A stretch of 19,279 nucleotides of DNA, taken from NCBI RefSeq assembly GCF_020216685.1, contig NZ_JAIWNS010000111.1, forward strand, positions 1 through 19,279, written 5' to 3'. Below are positions 11,282 to 17,841 of the stretch, piece after piece; the stretch's first letter is position 1, and every line of letters starts with the position of its first letter. The translations under genes and the position numbers were made by a program. This DNA is from Methanospirillum hungatei. Lineage in GTDB: Archaea; Halobacteriota; Methanomicrobia; Methanomicrobiales; Methanospirillaceae. The notes below the pieces were generated by a model. That model saw only the letters and a list, made by a program, of their open reading frames with translations. It was not told the DNA's origin and made no database searches.

Positions 11282-12124
11282 TCCCTGAACGTATATCCAG
11301 ACTTTTTCGATAATCTTTCAAGATTCAGCGGACTGATATTGGGAATTACCTGGGATATGAAAAAACACAGAATATGATAATTATAGCGAATTCGCTGATA
11401 AAATCTGTCTGATCAGTTTTTATATAATAAACTATTGTATCGGGACACCAGATATCAGACTTTTATTTCTGACAAAAAACAACGAACTAGTACTCATGAA
11501 TACCGCATATATAATGAGGTAGAATGAGGATGGACCTTGTCAGGTACGGGATCTCTCAGGGTTAACCGGGAAAGGGTAAAACCACACACAATAGACCGAA
11601 TGGTCACCAACACCTTTCCATCTTTCAGGGTCCATAATATCTATGTGATATCCTTTTCATCCAATCGTACTTGTTCTCATTTCAATCGCGCCTGAAAAGG
11701 CAGGTTCTCTGTTCATCACACTCCATTAATAACTATTGAAATTAATTGAATTTCATTATTTGACAGAAATGCCACAAAAGAAGTAACCATCTGATACAAT
11801 TATCATAAAAAGAAAAATCGGCGCATTTTTCGAATATCACAAAATATAAGCCCTGTTTTTCTACGCAGAATTCAGAACTTCAATTCGTAAGATTTATGCT
11901 TTGATATCAGGAACAGAAGAGATATACTGTGTACACGCATGAATCAGTATGCATATACCTGAAGGGACAGGTGTTCAGGCAGATTCAAAATGCCTCACAG
12001 TATATGAGTCACGTTACCATGATTCGAACCATCGGAACTGAGATGACTGAAACATACCTGGTATGGATGTGTTCATCTCTGCGTGAGAATTGCCAGTGTC
12101 ATCTCATCACCGGATGAGAGCACA
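11282..12124. other. Long gene-free stretch upstream of fdhA1
   Basis: About 840 bases without a convincing gene on either strand. It holds an 8-bp palindrome CTGATCAG (11409-11416) next to a TATA-like TTTTATATAATA, an AT-rich inverted repeat TGAAATT/AATTTCA (11737-11743 and 11749-11755, 5-base loop), and many short A/T runs. A 62-codon frame at 11929-12117 starts with GTG, lacks a ribosome binding site and has no recognisable composition. On the minus strand about 39 codons (11656-11540) end in a plausible looking peptide but have no start. It may be gene debris or a regulatory region. Confidence 0.5.
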
Positions 12125-12136
12125 ATTAATTCGCCA
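12125..12136 (+). promoter_or_regulatory. ATTAATTCGCCA element, copy 1 (upstream of fdhA1)
   Basis: ATTAATTCGCCA occurs here, 154 bases before the fdhA1 ATG, and identically at 15583-15594, 198 bases before the fdhA2 ATG. The surrounding sequences differ, so a shared site for a regulator or part of the promoter is likely. Downstream of it at this copy only a weak TATA candidate (GTTAAAAC, 12142-12149) is visible. Confidence 0.45.
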
Positions 12137-12140
12137 AACC

Positions 12141-12278
12141 GGTTAAAACAGCCATATTGGATGAGATTTTCTGATCGATACAGGGTTAGTGTGGTTTCCC
12201 GGTATTGAACGTTCTTCTCAGGGACTGGAAGGAGACCAGTCCTCATGGCTGTTTTACCCTGAGAACTCGGGTGAAAGA
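12141..12278 (+). promoter_or_regulatory. Structured leader of fdhA1 with RBS-sequestering hairpin (candidate RNA switch)
   Basis: Elements read by eye are as follows. P1 is a long-range stem, 12144-12155 with 12245-12256 (12 perfect pairs; GGT/ACC adds pairs past a one-base bulge). P2 is 12175-12181 + 12183-12185 with 12198-12200 + 12202-12208. P3 is GGACTGG 12222-12228 with CCAGTCC 12236-12242. The RBS hairpin is 12252-12262 with 12267-12276, containing the GGTGA at 12270-12274; the ATG is at 12279. The 5' arm of the RBS hairpin overlaps P1. Its CCCTGAG (12257-12263) can also pair with CTCAGGG at 12217-12223, so RBS-hidden and RBS-free folds exclude each other. If transcription starts near 12170, P1 would not be in the RNA but the CTCAGGG alternative would. 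No known riboswitch class is recognised. Confidence 0.5.
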
Positions 12279-14335
12279 ATGAGCGAAAGCAATCTAGTTA
12301 AGTATGTACAAACCATCTGCCCCTATTGTGGTGTCGGGTGTACTCTGAACCTTGTTGTTAAGAATGAAAAGGTCGTCGGCGTAGAACCATATAAGCGAAG
12401 CCCTATTAATGACGGGAAACTCTGTCCAAGGGTCTGACATGCTGAGAACATATCCACAGCCCTGACCGGCTAACGACACCTCTCATAAAAAAAGATGGGA
12501 AATTTGTCGAGGCGTCGTGGGATGAAGCTCTTGACCTTGTCGCAAAGAAATTGAAAGAAACAAGCGACAAATACGGACCTAAAGCATTTGGATTTCAGAC
12601 ATCCTGCAGAACAGTAAATGAAGACTGTTATATCTTTCAAAAATTCGCCCGTGTCGGTTTTAAAACAAACAATGTTGATAACTGTGCACGTATCTGCCAT
12701 GGGCCATCAGTAGCAGGCCTTTCCCTATCATTTGGATCTGGTGCAGCAACGAATGGCTTTGAAGATGCTCTAAATTCTGATTTTATCCTTGTGTGGGGAT
12801 CGAATGCTCTTGAAGCACACCCCCTTGCCGGGCGGCGTCTTGTCCAAGCAAAATTGAAAGGGATCCCTATCTATGCAGTTGACCCCCGTCTCTCAACCAC
12901 AGCCAAGATTGCAGATAAGTGGATTCAGTTTAATCCGTCAACACACATTGCTCTGGCAAACTCGATGATGTACTGGATCATCAAAGCAGACAAACATGAC
13001 AAGAAATTCATCGAAGAACGTGTGAACGGGTTTGAAGAACTCAAGGCGACGGTTGAAAAATATGCAGATGCTGAAGACAGCCATGGCGTCCCACTTGAAA
13101 CCGTAAAAGAACTGGCATATAAGTATGCATCAGCAAAGAGTGCAGTTATCATTTACTGTCTTGGAGTCACCGAACTGACCACCGGTACTGACAATGTCAG
13201 GTCTATGGGTAACCTTGCCCTGCTCACCGGAAATGTCGGTCGTCCTGGAACTGGTGTAAATCCCCTTCGTGGGCAGAACAATGTACAGGGTGCTTGTGAT
13301 ATGGGTGCATATCCAAATATGTATTCTGGATATCAGAAGTGCGAAATTGCTGAAAACCGTGCAAAAATGGAGAAGGCATGGGGCGTGACAGGTCTTCCGG
13401 ACTGGTATGGACAGACCCTTACTGAGCAGATTAACATCTGTGGGGATGAGATCAAGACGATGTATATCCTTGGTTTAAATCCGGTTGTCACTTATCCTGA
13501 TTCCAACCACGTGAAAAGACAACTTGAAAAACTCGACTTTCTCGTTGTCCAGGATATTTTCTTTACAGAAACCTGTCAATATGCAGATGTTATCCTACCA
13601 GGGGCTTGTTTCGCCGAGAAGGATGGTACTTTCACCAGCGGTGAGCGCCGTATTAACCGTGTCAGAAAAGCAACCAACCCACCAGGCAAAGCAAAAGAAG
13701 ATATCTGGATTATATCAGAACTTGCAAAGAAGATGGGTCTAAAGGGTTTTGATCTCCCGACTGCAAAAGACGTCTGGGATGATATGCGGAACTGTACCCC
13801 AAGCATGTTTGGTGCAACATACGAAAAACTTGAAAAACCTGAGTCTATTGTCTGGCCTTGTCCAACTCTCGAGCACTGTGGAACCCCGATCCTCCATTGT
13901 GAAAAATTCGCTTGTGCAGATGGAAAGGGTAACCTCTTTGGTATTGAATATCGCCCACCAGCAGAGGTTGCAGATGCTGAGTATCCGTTCACCATGATGA
14001 CAGGCCGGCTCATATTCCATTACCACTCCAGGACACAGACCGACAGGAGTGCCGCTCTTCATTACGAAGTGCCTGCATCATATGTCCAGATCAACAACGA
14101 AGATGCAAGACGCCTCGGTATCGGACAGCATGAGAAGATCCTGATCACCAGCAGACGTGGAAAAACCGAGACCATCGCCCATGTAACCGATGAGATCGGA
14201 CCTGGTGTCCTGTACATGACCATGCACTTTAATGAAGGTGTCAACAACCTGACGAACACTGTTCTTGATCCGATGTCCAAGATGCCGGAACTCAAGCACT
14301 GTGCTGTGAAAGTTGAAAAGATAGGGGGGAACTAA
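12279..14335 (+). pseudogene. fdhA: Formate dehydrogenase alpha subunit, copy 1, disrupted
   Basis: Starts at ATG 12279 with GGTGA at 12270-12274. Compared with the intact copy at 15781 it would be 685 aa. Two lesions break it. One A is missing at CCAAGG (12426-12431; the other copy has CCAAAGG), which gives a stop at 12435-12437 after only 52 codons. In the corrected frame, TGG (Trp57 of copy 2, TCWEHIHS) is TGA at 12443-12445. After that the frame is open to 14335 with full-length Mo-bisPGD oxidoreductase sequence. The N-terminal 4Fe-4S ligands (CPYCGVGC and the Cys of GKLCP) are retained. So are the catalytic Cys-His (NCARICHGPSVAGL), TSGERRINRVRKA and the C-terminal MGB-binding domain. 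As it stands, ribosomes would make only a 52-aa peptide. It could be recent decay, strain variation or sequence error; the substitution argues against pure homopolymer error. Confidence 0.88.
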
Positions 14336-14336
14336 T

Positions 14337-15487
14337 ATGGCAGCAACAGGCGACATGATTTATGCCTGGACAACTGACAGTGGTATTGCTAAAAAGGCAG
14401 AGTGTGGTGGTGCAGTAACGACCCTTTTAAAATATGCACTAGAAAACAAGATCGTTGATGTTGTTGTCGCAGTAAAGAAGGGATTTGATCTATATGATGC
14501 CGTTCCCGTTGCCAAACCGATGCAAAGGATCTTGACCAGACAGCTGGGTCATTACACTGTGGTACCCTGCTCATGTCCACCTTTATCCAGAAATACCTGG
14601 ACGGAGCAAAGAACATGAAAGTGGGTGTCGTAGTCAAAGGTTGCGACCTCATGAGCATGATTGAACTAGGTAAGAGGAACGAGATCAACATGAACAATGT
14701 CCTTACCATCGGTGTAAACTGTGGAGGTTCTGTAAATCCAATTCAGGCCCGGAAGATGATCAAGGAAAAGTTTGGTGTTGATCCAGACAAGGTTACTAAA
14801 GAAGAGATCGATAAGGGTCAGTTCATCATCGAGTATGAAGGCGGACACAAGGGCATCAAAATCGATGAACTTGAAGAAGAGGGTTATGGACGTCGTTCCA
14901 ACTGTCGGCGATGCAAGTACAAAATCCCCCGTCAGGCAGACCTTGCCTGTGGAAATTGGGGAGTGATCGGAGATAAGGCTGGGAAGGCAACCTTTATTGA
15001 GATTTGTAGTGACAAAGGTGCTGATATCGTTTCAAAGGCAGTATCAGCTAAGAAACTGGATACCTGTGCTGCTGAACCAAAGGGAATCGAGATCAGAGGC
15101 AAGACAGAGGGAGCCATGCTTAAACTTGGTGAGAAATGGCGTAAGAAGGAGTTTACTGCACTTCGTGACAATCTCTGGGACTTCATTAAAAAGGAGACAT
15201 CACGGTATATCAAGTGCTACTCCTGTATTGAAAAGTGTCCGGTTTGTATCTCCACACCATTCGTGGAAAGGCCTGAATCATATATGGTCAGACCAGGGTA
15301 TATCCCATCAGACCCAATGTTCCATCTTCGCCGGTTTGCATCCATCTCTGACAGTTGTGTAAATTGTGGTCAATGCGAAGAACTCTGTCCGGTTGAGATC
15401 CCCCTGGCTCTTATCTCACATGCCATCAGGGTTGAAGGGGATAATGCCTACGTTCCGAAACTCGGCGCTGCTCCATACAAAAACTAA
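14337..15487 (+). pseudogene. fdhB: Formate dehydrogenase beta subunit (F420-reducing), copy 1, disrupted
   Basis: ATG 14337 follows the fdhA1 stop by one base, with a G-rich site (GGGGGGAA) overlapping the end of fdhA1. FrhB/FdhB family: KAECGGAVTTLLKYALE at the N-terminus, GVNCGGSVNP, and GRRSNCRRCKYKIPRQADLACGNWG. One base is missing at AAA 14514-14516, so frame 1 ends at 14618 with a nonsense tail while the family sequence continues in the next frame (TDAKDLDQTAGSLHCGTLL) to 15487. Repaired length is 383 aa against 414 in copy 2. The C-terminal ferredoxin-like part is also altered. The first Cys of CxxCxxCxxxCP is Tyr (codon 15206-15208, YIKCYSCIEKCP), the CYCIEC stretch of copy 2 is reduced to CIS, and the last ~30 residues are absent. 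The second motif CVNCGQCEELCP is intact. These changes suggest decay that is not only frameshift. Confidence 0.87.
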
Positions 15488-15516: not shown

Positions 15517-15582
15517 CACCATCTCATTTGGGTAATAAATCATTCCCTGAATAGTTCCCACCACTAAAAACCAAAATTCCGG

Positions 15583-15594
15583 ATTAATTCGCCA
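15583..15594 (+). promoter_or_regulatory. ATTAATTCGCCA element, copy 2 (upstream of fdhA2)
   Basis: Identical to 12125-12136. Here it ends two bases before a TATA box, the place where TFB/BRE contacts or a transcription activator or repressor would sit. This favours a promoter-linked function for the element. Confidence 0.45.
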
Positions 15595-15596
15595 TC

Positions 15597-15604
15597 TTTA
15601 TATG
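15597..15604 (+). promoter_or_regulatory. TATA box of the fdhA2-fdhB2 operon
   Basis: TTTATATG is a good archaeal TATA box. Initiation about 25 bases downstream (near 15625-15630) would give a leader of about 150 bases whose first bases form the closing stem of the structured region. Confidence 0.5.
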
Positions 15605-15625
15605 AGTATGTGGAGTAATACTTCT

Positions 15626-15780
15626 CTGCATTGTGATCAGGGGGTGTGCGATTACACCCATGGACATATTCGGGTTGTCCATTCCTGTGTGCCTGGTTAC
15701 AAAACGCAAGAATGATTTGAAGAGCGAAGGCTTCGTACCTGTAATTACGGTATCTTTCACCAGTCAAACTCGGGTGAAAT
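15626..15780 (+). promoter_or_regulatory. Structured leader of fdhA2: three-way junction plus RBS hairpin
   Basis: Two perfect hairpins abut without a gap: GGGTGT 15642-15647 with ACACCC 15654-15659, then ATGGACA 15660-15666 with TGTCCAT 15676-15682. They are enclosed by CAGG 15638-15641 with CCTG 15684-15687, and possibly GCA/TGC (15628-15630, 15690-15692), forming a compact three-way junction. Downstream, a near-palindrome TACC-GTAATTAC-GGTA (15737-15752) precedes the RBS hairpin TTTCACC 15755-15761 with GGTGAAA 15773-15779. The latter buries the GGTGA of fdhA2, 3 bases before the ATG at 15781. The last 13 bases, AACTCGGGTGAAA, are the same as in leader 1. Confidence 0.5.
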
Positions 15781-17841
15781 ATGAGTGAAAATTCAGAAAT
15801 AATGAAATATGTGGCAACCACTTGTCCCTACTGTGGTGTTGGTTGTACATTAAACCTGGTTGTTAGTAATGGTAAGGTCGTTGGTGTTGAGCCAAACCAG
15901 AGATCTCCCATCAATGAAGGAAAACTTTGTCCAAAGGGAGTTACCTGCTGGGAACACATACACAGCCCTGACCGTCTGACCACTCCCTTGATTAAAAAGG
16001 ACGGAAAGTTTATTGAGGCATCCTGGGATGAGGCACTAGATCTCGTTGCAAAGAACCTTAAGGCCATCTACGACAAACATGGCCCAAAAGGACTTGGATT
16101 CCAGACCTCCTGTAGAACCGTCAATGAAGATTGCTATATATTCCAGAAGTTCGCACGTGTTGGATTCAAGACAAACAACGTTGACAATTGTGCCCGGATC
16201 TGTCACGGACCATCTGTTGCAGGTCTTTCACTCTCCTTTGGTTCTGGTGCAGCAACAAATGGTTTTGAAGATGCACTGAACGCCGATTTAATTCTCATCT
16301 GGGGATCAAATGCAGTCGAAGCACATCCCCTGGCAGGTCGTCGGATTGCACAGGCGAAGAAGAAAGGCATACAGATTATTGCCGTTGACCCACGGTACAC
16401 GATGACTGCCCGTTTGGCCGACACATATGTGCGGTTTAATCCATCAACCCATATCGCCCTTGCAAACTCTATGATGTACTGGATCATCAAAGAGGGCCTT
16501 GAAGATAAAAAATTCATTCAAGATCGTGTCAACGGGTTTGAAGATCTCAAGAAGACGGTTGAGAACTACGCCGATGCAGAAGCAATCCATGGGGTTCCCC
16601 TTGATGTTGTAAAAGATATTGCATTCAGATATGCAAAGGCAAAGAATGCAGTTATCATCTACTGTCTTGGAATCACTGAACTTACCACAGGTACTGATAA
16701 TGTTAGATCCATGGGTAATCTTGCTCTTCTGACTGGAAACGTTGGTCGTGAGGGAGTAGGAGTCAACCCCCTTCGTGGTCAGAACAATGTGCAGGGAGCA
16801 TGTGACATGGGTGCATACCCGAATGTCTACTCTGGTTACCAGAAATGTGAAGTTGCAGAAAACCGTGCGAAGATGGAGAAGGCATGGAGTGTGACTAATC
16901 TCCCGGACTGGTACGGAGCAACCCTCACAGAACAGATCAACCAGTGCGGCGATGAGATCAAGGGAATGTATATCCTCGGTCTGAACCCCGTTGTAACCTA
17001 TCCAAGTTCTAACCATGTTAAAGCACAGTTGGAAAAGCTTGACTTCCTCGTTGTACAAGATATATTTTTCACGGAAACCTGTCAATATGCAGATGTCATA
17101 CTTCCAGGAGCCTGTTTTGCAGAGAAAGACGGAACCTTCACCAGTGGAGAACGCCGTATTAACCGGGTCAGAAAAGCAGTCAATCCACCAGGTCAGGCAA
17201 AAGAAGATATTCACATCATCTCTGAACTCGCTGCAAAGATGGGCTTTAAAGGTTTTGAACTTCCGACTGCAAAGGATGTATGGGATGACATGCGGGCGGT
17301 AACTCCGTCCATGTTCGGAGCAACCTACGAAAAACTTGAGAGGCCTGAAGGGATCTGCTGGCCATGTCCAACAGAGGAGCACCCGGGAACCCCAATTCTG
17401 CATCGGGAAAAGTTTGCTACTGCAGACGGCAAGGGTAATCTCTTTGGAATTGATTACCGGCCGCCAGCAGAAGTTGCTGATGCTGAGTATCCGTTCACCC
17501 TCATGACCGGACGGCTTATCTTCCACTATCATTCCAGAACCCAGACGGATCGTGCTGCTGACCTGCACCGCGAGGTTCCTGAATCATATGCCCAGATCAA
17601 TATTGAGGATGCACGTCGTCTTGGTATTAAGAACAATGAGTACATCAAGCTGAAAAGCCGCCGTGGAGAGACCACAACACTCGCACGTGTCACCGATGAA
17701 GTCGCTCCAGGTGTTGTGTACATGACCATGCACTTTGCCGATGGTGTCAATAACCTGACCAACACCGTTCTTGATCCAATGTCCAAGATGCCGGAGCTCA
17801 AGCATTGTGCCATATCAATTGAAAAGGTTGGAGGGAACTAA
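15781..17841 (+). CDS. fdhA: Formate dehydrogenase alpha subunit (catalytic, Cys-type), intact copy
   Basis: 686 aa, full length. It catalyses formate oxidation to CO2 at a Mo- or W-bis-pyranopterin guanine dinucleotide centre. N-terminal 4Fe-4S ligands are C15, C18, C22 (CPYCGVGC) and C50 (GKLCPKG). Catalytic C141-H142 lies in NCARICHGPSVAGLS, at the place of the Sec-His of E. coli FdhF, so this is a cysteine enzyme. Other family segments are LIWGSNAVEAHPLAGRR, GLNPVVTYP, TETCQYADVILPG, TSGERRINRVRKA, and the C-terminal cap MTGRLIFHYHSRTQTDR and MHFADGVNNLTNTVLDP. There is no Tat or Sec signal, so it is cytoplasmic. fdhB2 follows after one base. In Methanomicrobiales FdhAB supplies F420H2 and can attach to heterodisulfide reductase (family knowledge). 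Translation is probably gated by the leader hairpin. Start ATG 15781 with GGTGA at 15773. Confidence 0.97.
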   Translation: MSENSEIMKYVATTCPYCGVGCTLNLVVSNGKVVGVEPNQRSPINEGKLCPKGVTCWEHIHSPDRLTTPLIKKDGKFIEASWDEALDLVAKNLKAIYDKHGPKGLGFQTSCRTVNEDCYIFQKFARVGFKTNNVDNCARICHGPSVAGLSLSFGSGAATNGFEDALNADLILIWGSNAVEAHPLAGRRIAQAKKKGIQIIAVDPRYTMTARLADTYVRFNPSTHIALANSMMYWIIKEGLEDKKFIQDRVNGFEDLKKTVENYADAEAIHGVPLDVVKDIAFRYAKAKNAVIIYCLGITELTTGTDNVRSMGNLALLTGNVGREGVGVNPLRGQNNVQGACDMGAYPNVYSGYQKCEVAENRAKMEKAWSVTNLPDWYGATLTEQINQCGDEIKGMYILGLNPVVTYPSSNHVKAQLEKLDFLVVQDIFFTETCQYADVILPGACFAEKDGTFTSGERRINRVRKAVNPPGQAKEDIHIISELAAKMGFKGFELPTAKDVWDDMRAVTPSMFGATYEKLERPEGICWPCPTEEHPGTPILHREKFATADGKGNLFGIDYRPPAEVADAEYPFTLMTGRLIFHYHSRTQTDRAADLHREVPESYAQINIEDARRLGIKNNEYIKLKSRRGETTTLARVTDEVAPGVVYMTMHFADGVNNLTNTVLDPMSKMPELKHCAISIEKVGGN

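Follow-up and report, generated by a model that had tools for sequence, protein, structure and literature searches.

Translation of fdhA1 in Methanospirillum hungatei is somewhat likely to be controlled by pairing of its mRNA leader with an adjacent upstream non-coding RNA, here called element U, a reading that comes from sequence comparison. The folds of the two elements and their conservation, the conserved and exact antiparallel complementarity between them, and their co-occurrence from genome to genome are established. The window, meaning the whole stretch of DNA analysed (19,279 nt of contig NZ_JAIWNS010000111.1), belongs to a genome assembly (G000) of 300 contigs that is 90% complete.

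A DNA search of 61 genomes located the fdhA1 leader in the window genome and in seven relatives of the same genus; a short chance match elsewhere (L010) was excluded from the alignment. Because the window and L003 are 99% identical in this region, the eight aligned genomes count as about seven independent ones. The conserved leader extends 5′ of the region singled out in the preliminary description, which makes up just its 3′ part. The features of the leader and its promoter are:

11884–11898, + strand: putative BRE/TATA-like promoter of the leader (TTCGTAAGATTTATG), conserved in 8/8 genomes (alignment by eye)
11922–12005, + strand: leader domain A, closing stem 11922–11931/11996–12005 with inner hairpins, conserved
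12006–12025, + strand: leader domain B hairpin, 95.8% of cells paired, no two-sided change
12040–12079, + strand: leader domain C hairpin, two-sided changes in 5/7 pairs, 71.4% of cells paired
12087–12132, + strand: leader domain D hairpin, two-sided changes in 3/11 pairs of the inner helix, outer helix invariant
12141–12258, + strand: P1 of domain E, 12141–12155 with 12245–12258, two-sided changes in 4/8 counted pairs, 96.8% of cells paired
12175–12208, + strand: P2 hairpin with the invariant loop GTGTGGTT (12189–12196), two-sided changes in 4/9 counted pairs
12222–12242, + strand: P3 hairpin, two-sided changes in 6/6 counted pairs, 83.7% of cells paired
12252–12276, + strand: SD-sequestering hairpin, in its full form exclusive with lower P1, seen in the sequence, its core nearly invariant and outside the covariation test
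12256–12264, + strand: ACCCTGAGA, anti-SD arm and loop, complement of U segment 1, absent in L006
12269–12281, + strand: SD GGGTGA (12269–12274) and start codon ATG (12279) of fdhA1, from the sequence

The usual spacing between archaeal promoters and transcript starts places the beginning of the leader near nt 11920, which predicts an fdhA1 leader of about 355 nt with all of P1 included. An earlier caveat, that the transcript might start 3′ of the 5′ arm of P1, is probably answered by the conserved BRE/TATA-like block, as the predicted start lies far upstream of that arm. In an alignment of the 1 kb upstream, domains A to D (11922–12132) are conserved across the eight genomes. Domains A and B vary too little to be informative (covariation 0.076 versus 0.069 shuffled, reached by 114/500 shuffles), while domains C and D jointly covary (0.234 versus 0.135, 0/500 shuffles). 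Domain A resembles a cloverleaf by eye, with its closing stem and three inner hairpins; ARAGORN found no tRNA in the window. At the 3′ edge of domain D, the invariant UUCGCC (12130–12135) could pair either with GCGA in the first codons or with GGUGAA of the SD. UCGC (12131–12134) pairs with GCGA in the consensus fold of seven of the eight genomes, L009 being the exception, and this pairing was kept out of the model because the bases are nearly invariant and UUCGCC/GGUGAA is equally possible.

For the 3′ part, the pairings proposed in the preliminary description were exact in position, and P1, P2 and P3 all appear in the minimum-energy fold of 12141–12300, together with a shorter form of the SD hairpin. 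The core of P1 (12144–12155/12245–12256) consists of 12 perfect pairs, and an extension past a bulge is possible (GG 12141–12142 with CC 12257–12258); the full SD hairpin (12252–12262/12267–12276) has 10 pairs, one bulge and one G-U. The proposed three-way junction above an SD-sequestering hairpin is borne out by stems that are both conserved and covarying. In the sequence-only alignment of eight genomes this 3′ part (domain E and the SD hairpin) had a covariation score of 0.448, versus 0.237 (sd 0.028) for shuffled alignments, none of 500 shuffles reaching the observed value; a slid-partner control gave at most 0.158. Two-sided changes were seen in 14/28 of its pairs, with none in the five pairs of the SD hairpin, which hardly varies. 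Stability also exceeded that of most shuffled sequences: fold z was −2.26 for 12141–12300 (4/200 shuffles equally stable) and −3.61 for 11920–12300 (0/100). The equivalents of 11920–12290 gave −2.6 to −5.6 across the eight genomes, the P1-P2-P3 part by itself being weaker (−0.8 to −4.4). Taken together, the fdhA1 leader is a real, large and conserved leader RNA.

Two details of the proposed switch stood only in part. P1 and the SD hairpin do share the strand 12252–12258, as an exclusive choice between folds would need, but the minimum-energy fold contains both P1 and the shorter SD hairpin. CTCAGGG (12217–12223) is complementary to CCCTGAG (12257–12263) as described, but it is no conserved switch element, since it occurs in only 2/8 genomes, the window and L003. 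The SD itself (GGTGA) is predicted to be unpaired with a probability of 0.06–0.52 across the eight genomes. The conserved unpaired parts of the leader are the P2 loop (predicted unpaired 0.38–0.91 in the eight genomes) and the anti-SD arm, which is not specially exposed (0.29–0.43).

Covariance models were made from the eight aligned sequences for domain E (R1) and for U (R2). Their matches in those genomes follow by construction, and what the searches contribute is copy number and absence elsewhere. R1 matched eight of 12 Methanospirillum genomes (E < 1e-30), with one strong copy each, before fdhA1. Under the stricter filters of the order-wide searches, with 11 candidates scored per genome, R1 had no comparable match outside Methanospirillum among 232 genomes of the order; weak matches in eight of these genomes from outside the genus (E 0.013 to 0.084) are at about chance level. 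In the search of the genus, one weak match (L027, E 0.033) is an fdhA2 leader. The fdhA2 leader of the window (15570–15785) has ATTAATTCGCCA and AACTCGGGTGAAA in common with the fdhA1 leader, and in it ATTAATTCGCCA directly precedes TTTATAT, a TATA-like sequence. An SD hairpin of its own (TTTCACC/GGTGAAA) can form there as well. By eye, AACTCGGGTGAAA was absent from 21 fdhA loci outside the genus among the matches listed (170 nt upstream of the motif). Rfam gave no match at the gathering score in the window or in L003, L009, L065 and L066, none for 12060–12320 up to E 10, and only matches far below threshold for 11282–12300; the comparison with known families, including the Moco RNA motif, that had been suggested for the leader thus gave no match.

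A second structured element, U, lies upstream of the leader promoter:

11421–11429, + strand: TATA-like site before U (TATATAATA), A/T-rich and in the aligned place in 8/8 genomes by eye, of putative function
11448–11645, + strand: element U, candidate non-coding RNA with approximate ends, recognised by fold z and R2 matches
11530–11635, + strand: main stem of U, 11530–11539 with 11626–11635, from folding, enclosing both pairing segments
11554–11562, + strand: U segment 1, TCTCAGGGT, complementary to 12256–12264, from conserved-block comparison
11579–11587, + strand: U segment 2, AAACCACAC, complementary to the P2 loop (12189–12197), from conserved-block comparison

In the eight genomes, U (11483–11645) has a fold z of −1.9 to −4.7, compared with −1.8 to 1.3 for the spacer at 11700–11880, which is unstructured, and −2.4 to 2.0 for the flank at 11290–11415. 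Its covariation score was 0.256 versus 0.170 shuffled (0/500 shuffles); the four pairs with two-sided changes were reached by 126/500 shuffles, so that this count is not above shuffles. R2 found U once in each of eight of the 12 genus genomes, the same eight that carry the leader, and both elements were unmatched in the remaining four. Elsewhere in the 232 genomes of the order there was no U at E 0.05. U adjoins the leader in 8/8 genomes, on the same strand and in fixed order. The genes 5′ of U vary among genomes, and L078 and L079 have their nearest long upstream frame on the opposite strand; as the upstream genes differ, U goes with fdhA1 and is not the end of any particular upstream gene. 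Copies of U segment 2 away from the locus (L083, L086 and L088) were rejected as U paralogues: they fall within listed open frames, and no further feature of U was seen there by eye.

Conservation in at least 7/8 genomes picks out three blocks of 7 nt or more in the U region, and exact reverse complements of conserved blocks in the leader lie within two of these. In the first, TCTCAGGGT (11554–11562) is complementary to ACCCTGAGA (12256–12264), which spans the arm and loop of the SD hairpin; in the second, AACCACAC (11580–11587) is complementary to GTGTGGTT in the P2 loop. Both segments can pair simultaneously, given their antiparallel order. Complementarity is kept in 7/8 genomes for segment 1 and in 8/8 for segment 2; the pairing sites hardly vary, and so there is no intermolecular covariation. 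Within U, segment 2 is predicted to be unpaired in all eight genomes (0.80–0.99), and segment 1 is not specially exposed (0.46–0.62). The third block, ATCGCGCC (11685–11692), kept in at least 7/8 genomes, has no complement in the leader. The U of the window and of L003 also holds AGGGTAAAAC (11570–11580), a 10-nt complement of the P1 3′ arm, which is the longest match in these two but not in the other six genomes with this leader and U (type 1 genomes).

Two antiparallel 8-mers arose in 0/5000 shuffled-U trials, and one or more in 47/5000; of the U blocks, the shuffles preserved single-base composition only. No such 8-mers came from the identity, reverse and complement controls at the 7/8 threshold. 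With conservation thresholds of 6/8 and 7/8 both antiparallel 8-mers persist, and 0/2000 shuffles give them; one 7-mer identity control was positive at 6/8. At 8/8 only the loop match is left, L006 having lost segment 1 on both sides, and for blocks of at least 7 nt this single 8-mer is reached by 39/2000 shuffles.

The case for pairing rests on conservation and not on energy. Joint folding of type 1 pairs showed no gain over shuffled U: the number of shuffles, out of 60, that equalled or bettered the real U was 42 to 60 in six genomes, 36 in L009 and 15 in L006. The P2 loop was paired with U in 1/8 genomes and the anti-SD arm in 0/8 by a joint folding that cannot represent loop pairing that preserves the P2 stem. 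Duplex folding of the whole RNAs was uninformative. The longest type 1 match of each genome is weakly unusual, its length being equalled in 15 to 250 of 1000 shuffles. After subtraction of opening costs, the summed energies of the segments, which were chosen by us and had no shuffled control, came to −15.2 to −17.6 kcal/mol in seven genomes and −9.6 kcal/mol in L006. With pairing, the predicted cost of opening the SD was lower in 6/8 genomes, unchanged in L006 and higher in L009.

Two other genomes of the genus, G008 and G004, have an fdhA copy resembling fdhA1 (83% and 82% to the fdhA2 query), as judged by similarity without a tree, but lack this leader and U. No fdhA1-like match was found in G002 and G005, which are 88% and 67% complete. 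In place of the type 1 pair, G004 and G008 carry what we call type 2. The type 2 leader (L065, L066) is structured, with its SD within AACTCGGGGA, and a conserved element about 420–435 nt further upstream holds, in each genome, an 11-nt exact complement of the sequence directly 5′ of the SD. Such a match length was reached by 10/1000 (G004) and 4/1000 (G008) shuffles; the 10- and 11-nt type 2 matches are not aligned in both genomes, owing to an aligner gap in the leader, and their homology was judged by eye. The longest complementarities were 8–12 nt between type 1 U and type 1 leaders, 11–14 nt within type 2, and 6–9 nt across types. Joint folding predicts the type 2 duplex on its target at probabilities of 1.00 and 0.99, and pairing of the SD at 0.98 and 0.68, the gain being equalled by 8/60 shuffles in each genome. 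Without the duplex, the SD is predicted to be open in G004 (0.95 unpaired) and mostly closed in G008 (0.26). The predicted type 2 duplex covers the SD and, on this model from two genomes, would repress. U and the type 2 element are not shown homologues, R2 having no match up to E 10 in L065 or L066. A 5′ hairpin common to both was seen by eye only.

The following mechanism would account for these observations. The fdhA1 leader, with its several domains, would hide its own SD in a hairpin, and U would be made as a separate non-coding RNA from its own putative promoter on the same strand. Segment 2 of U would bind the exposed P2 loop at 12189–12197 while segment 1 binds the arm and loop of the SD hairpin at 12256–12264, and this binding would alter the access of ribosomes to the SD. 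P1, through the common strand 12252–12258, may tune the same choice, and regulation of the U promoter would suffice as input. For the sign of the effect in type 1 we lean weakly towards activation by freeing of the SD, which we hold to be only slightly more probable than the opposite, since U targets the hiding arm and not the SD. Two points speak against activation: the duplex would end only 4 nt short of the SD, where it might obstruct the ribosome, and the type 2 arrangement looks repressive. More broadly, the system could be a two-piece archaeal translational switch, in which a non-coding RNA gene beside its target grips both a leader hairpin loop and the SD-hiding arm, and in which the pair has been rewritten within the genus to unrelated sequences of comparable layout (type 2). 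Such rewriting is expected if two RNAs coevolve; the broader proposal is a tentative one, which we rate at a little below even.

Other explanations were weighed against control by U. The arrangement of U and leader, adjacent and in fixed order on one strand in all eight genomes, would also suit a single transcript, about 830 nt long and begun at the TATA-like site before U, in which the segments form long-range helices and promoter choice decides the fold; those helices would be nested. A conserved BRE/TATA-like block stands between U and the leader in 8/8 genomes, however, and the spacer is unstructured, so that part of the fdhA1 mRNA would lack U; the single transcript is, in our estimate, unlikely. 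The preliminary description had suggested a translational riboswitch, with formate, molybdate, tungstate or the pterin cofactor as speculative inputs; in such a switch the small molecule would stabilise P1 and free the SD. The three-way junction, the covarying stems and the strand shared by P1 and the SD hairpin all accord with such a model. Nevertheless, the region around the junction has no invariant column in 12154–12183 or 12200–12247 of the eight-genome alignment (a pocket could lie elsewhere in the leader), the element was found in one genus only, with one copy per genome, and the conserved unpaired bases are complementary to a neighbouring structured element. With the junction unconserved and Rfam giving no match, a metabolite riboswitch is conceivable but not favoured, and we consider it quite improbable.

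A protein that regulates translation or stability by binding the P2 loop, or another part of the leader, would also account for the invariance and exposure of that loop; the match to U would then be secondary. Protein binding predicts neither two antiparallel complements in U nor the type 2 pair, and appears very unlikely. Finally, the segments could be DNA sites of a transcription regulator in opposite orientations, given that operators occur in either orientation and that the region holds two promoter-like sites. One of the segments is, however, the loop of a covarying stem and the other an arm of the SD hairpin, and type 2 genomes carry other letters at the comparable place; DNA sites are very unlikely, and the least probable of the explanations considered.

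In the window, the fdhA1 frame (12279–14335) is interrupted by a stop at 12437 (...GKLCPRV*), and the remainder continues in a different frame that contains one TGA. The seven aligned relatives have an open frame over the whole length checked (405 to 504 codons), and the interruption in the window is either decay or an assembly error. fdhB1 (14337–15487) is apparently split between overlapping frames (14337–14618 and 14573–15487), and fdhA2 and fdhB2 are intact. M. hungatei JF-1 lives on hydrogen and formate from syntrophic partners, and control by RNA pairs is, to our knowledge, little documented in archaea. Five formate dehydrogenase clusters are described for the JF-1 strain (PMC4704411). 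The leader and U both occur in the cultured strains JF-1 (G003) and M. stamsii Pt1 (G009), which makes the promoters, the pairing and the effect on FdhA directly testable. With this system, two RNAs missing from Rfam would be added, a large conserved leader from archaea and its dedicated partner, and no description of it was found in the titles and abstract openings of the mainly open-access literature searched.

Long 5′ leaders before catabolic operons of methanogens have a precedent in the CO dehydrogenase operon of Methanosarcina, which has a long structured leader. Translational riboswitches, including the Moco RNA motif, place a junction above an SD-hiding platform with exclusive folds. 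The fdhA1 leader differs in having no Rfam match and no conserved junction, and in that its conserved unpaired bases are complementary to another RNA. In bacteria, DsrA-rpoS and GlmZ-glmS work by anti-antisense activation, the small RNA pairing with the arm that hides the SD, and U would target the same kind of arm. Unlike these, U is archaeal, is encoded beside its target and has a second contact at a hairpin loop, and its type 2 counterpart looks repressive. The nearest archaeal case found is sRNA162 of Methanosarcina mazei, which pairs with mRNA, masks a ribosome-binding site and contacts the 5′ UTR of its neighbour (PMC3510493). Like it, the candidate RNA U would be a methanogen small RNA pairing near a ribosome-binding site. 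In the same account, sRNA162 is antisense to its neighbour, on the opposite strand, and reaches its trans target via a different domain (PMC3510493), whereas U shares the strand of fdhA1 and has two segments that match two sites within a single leader.
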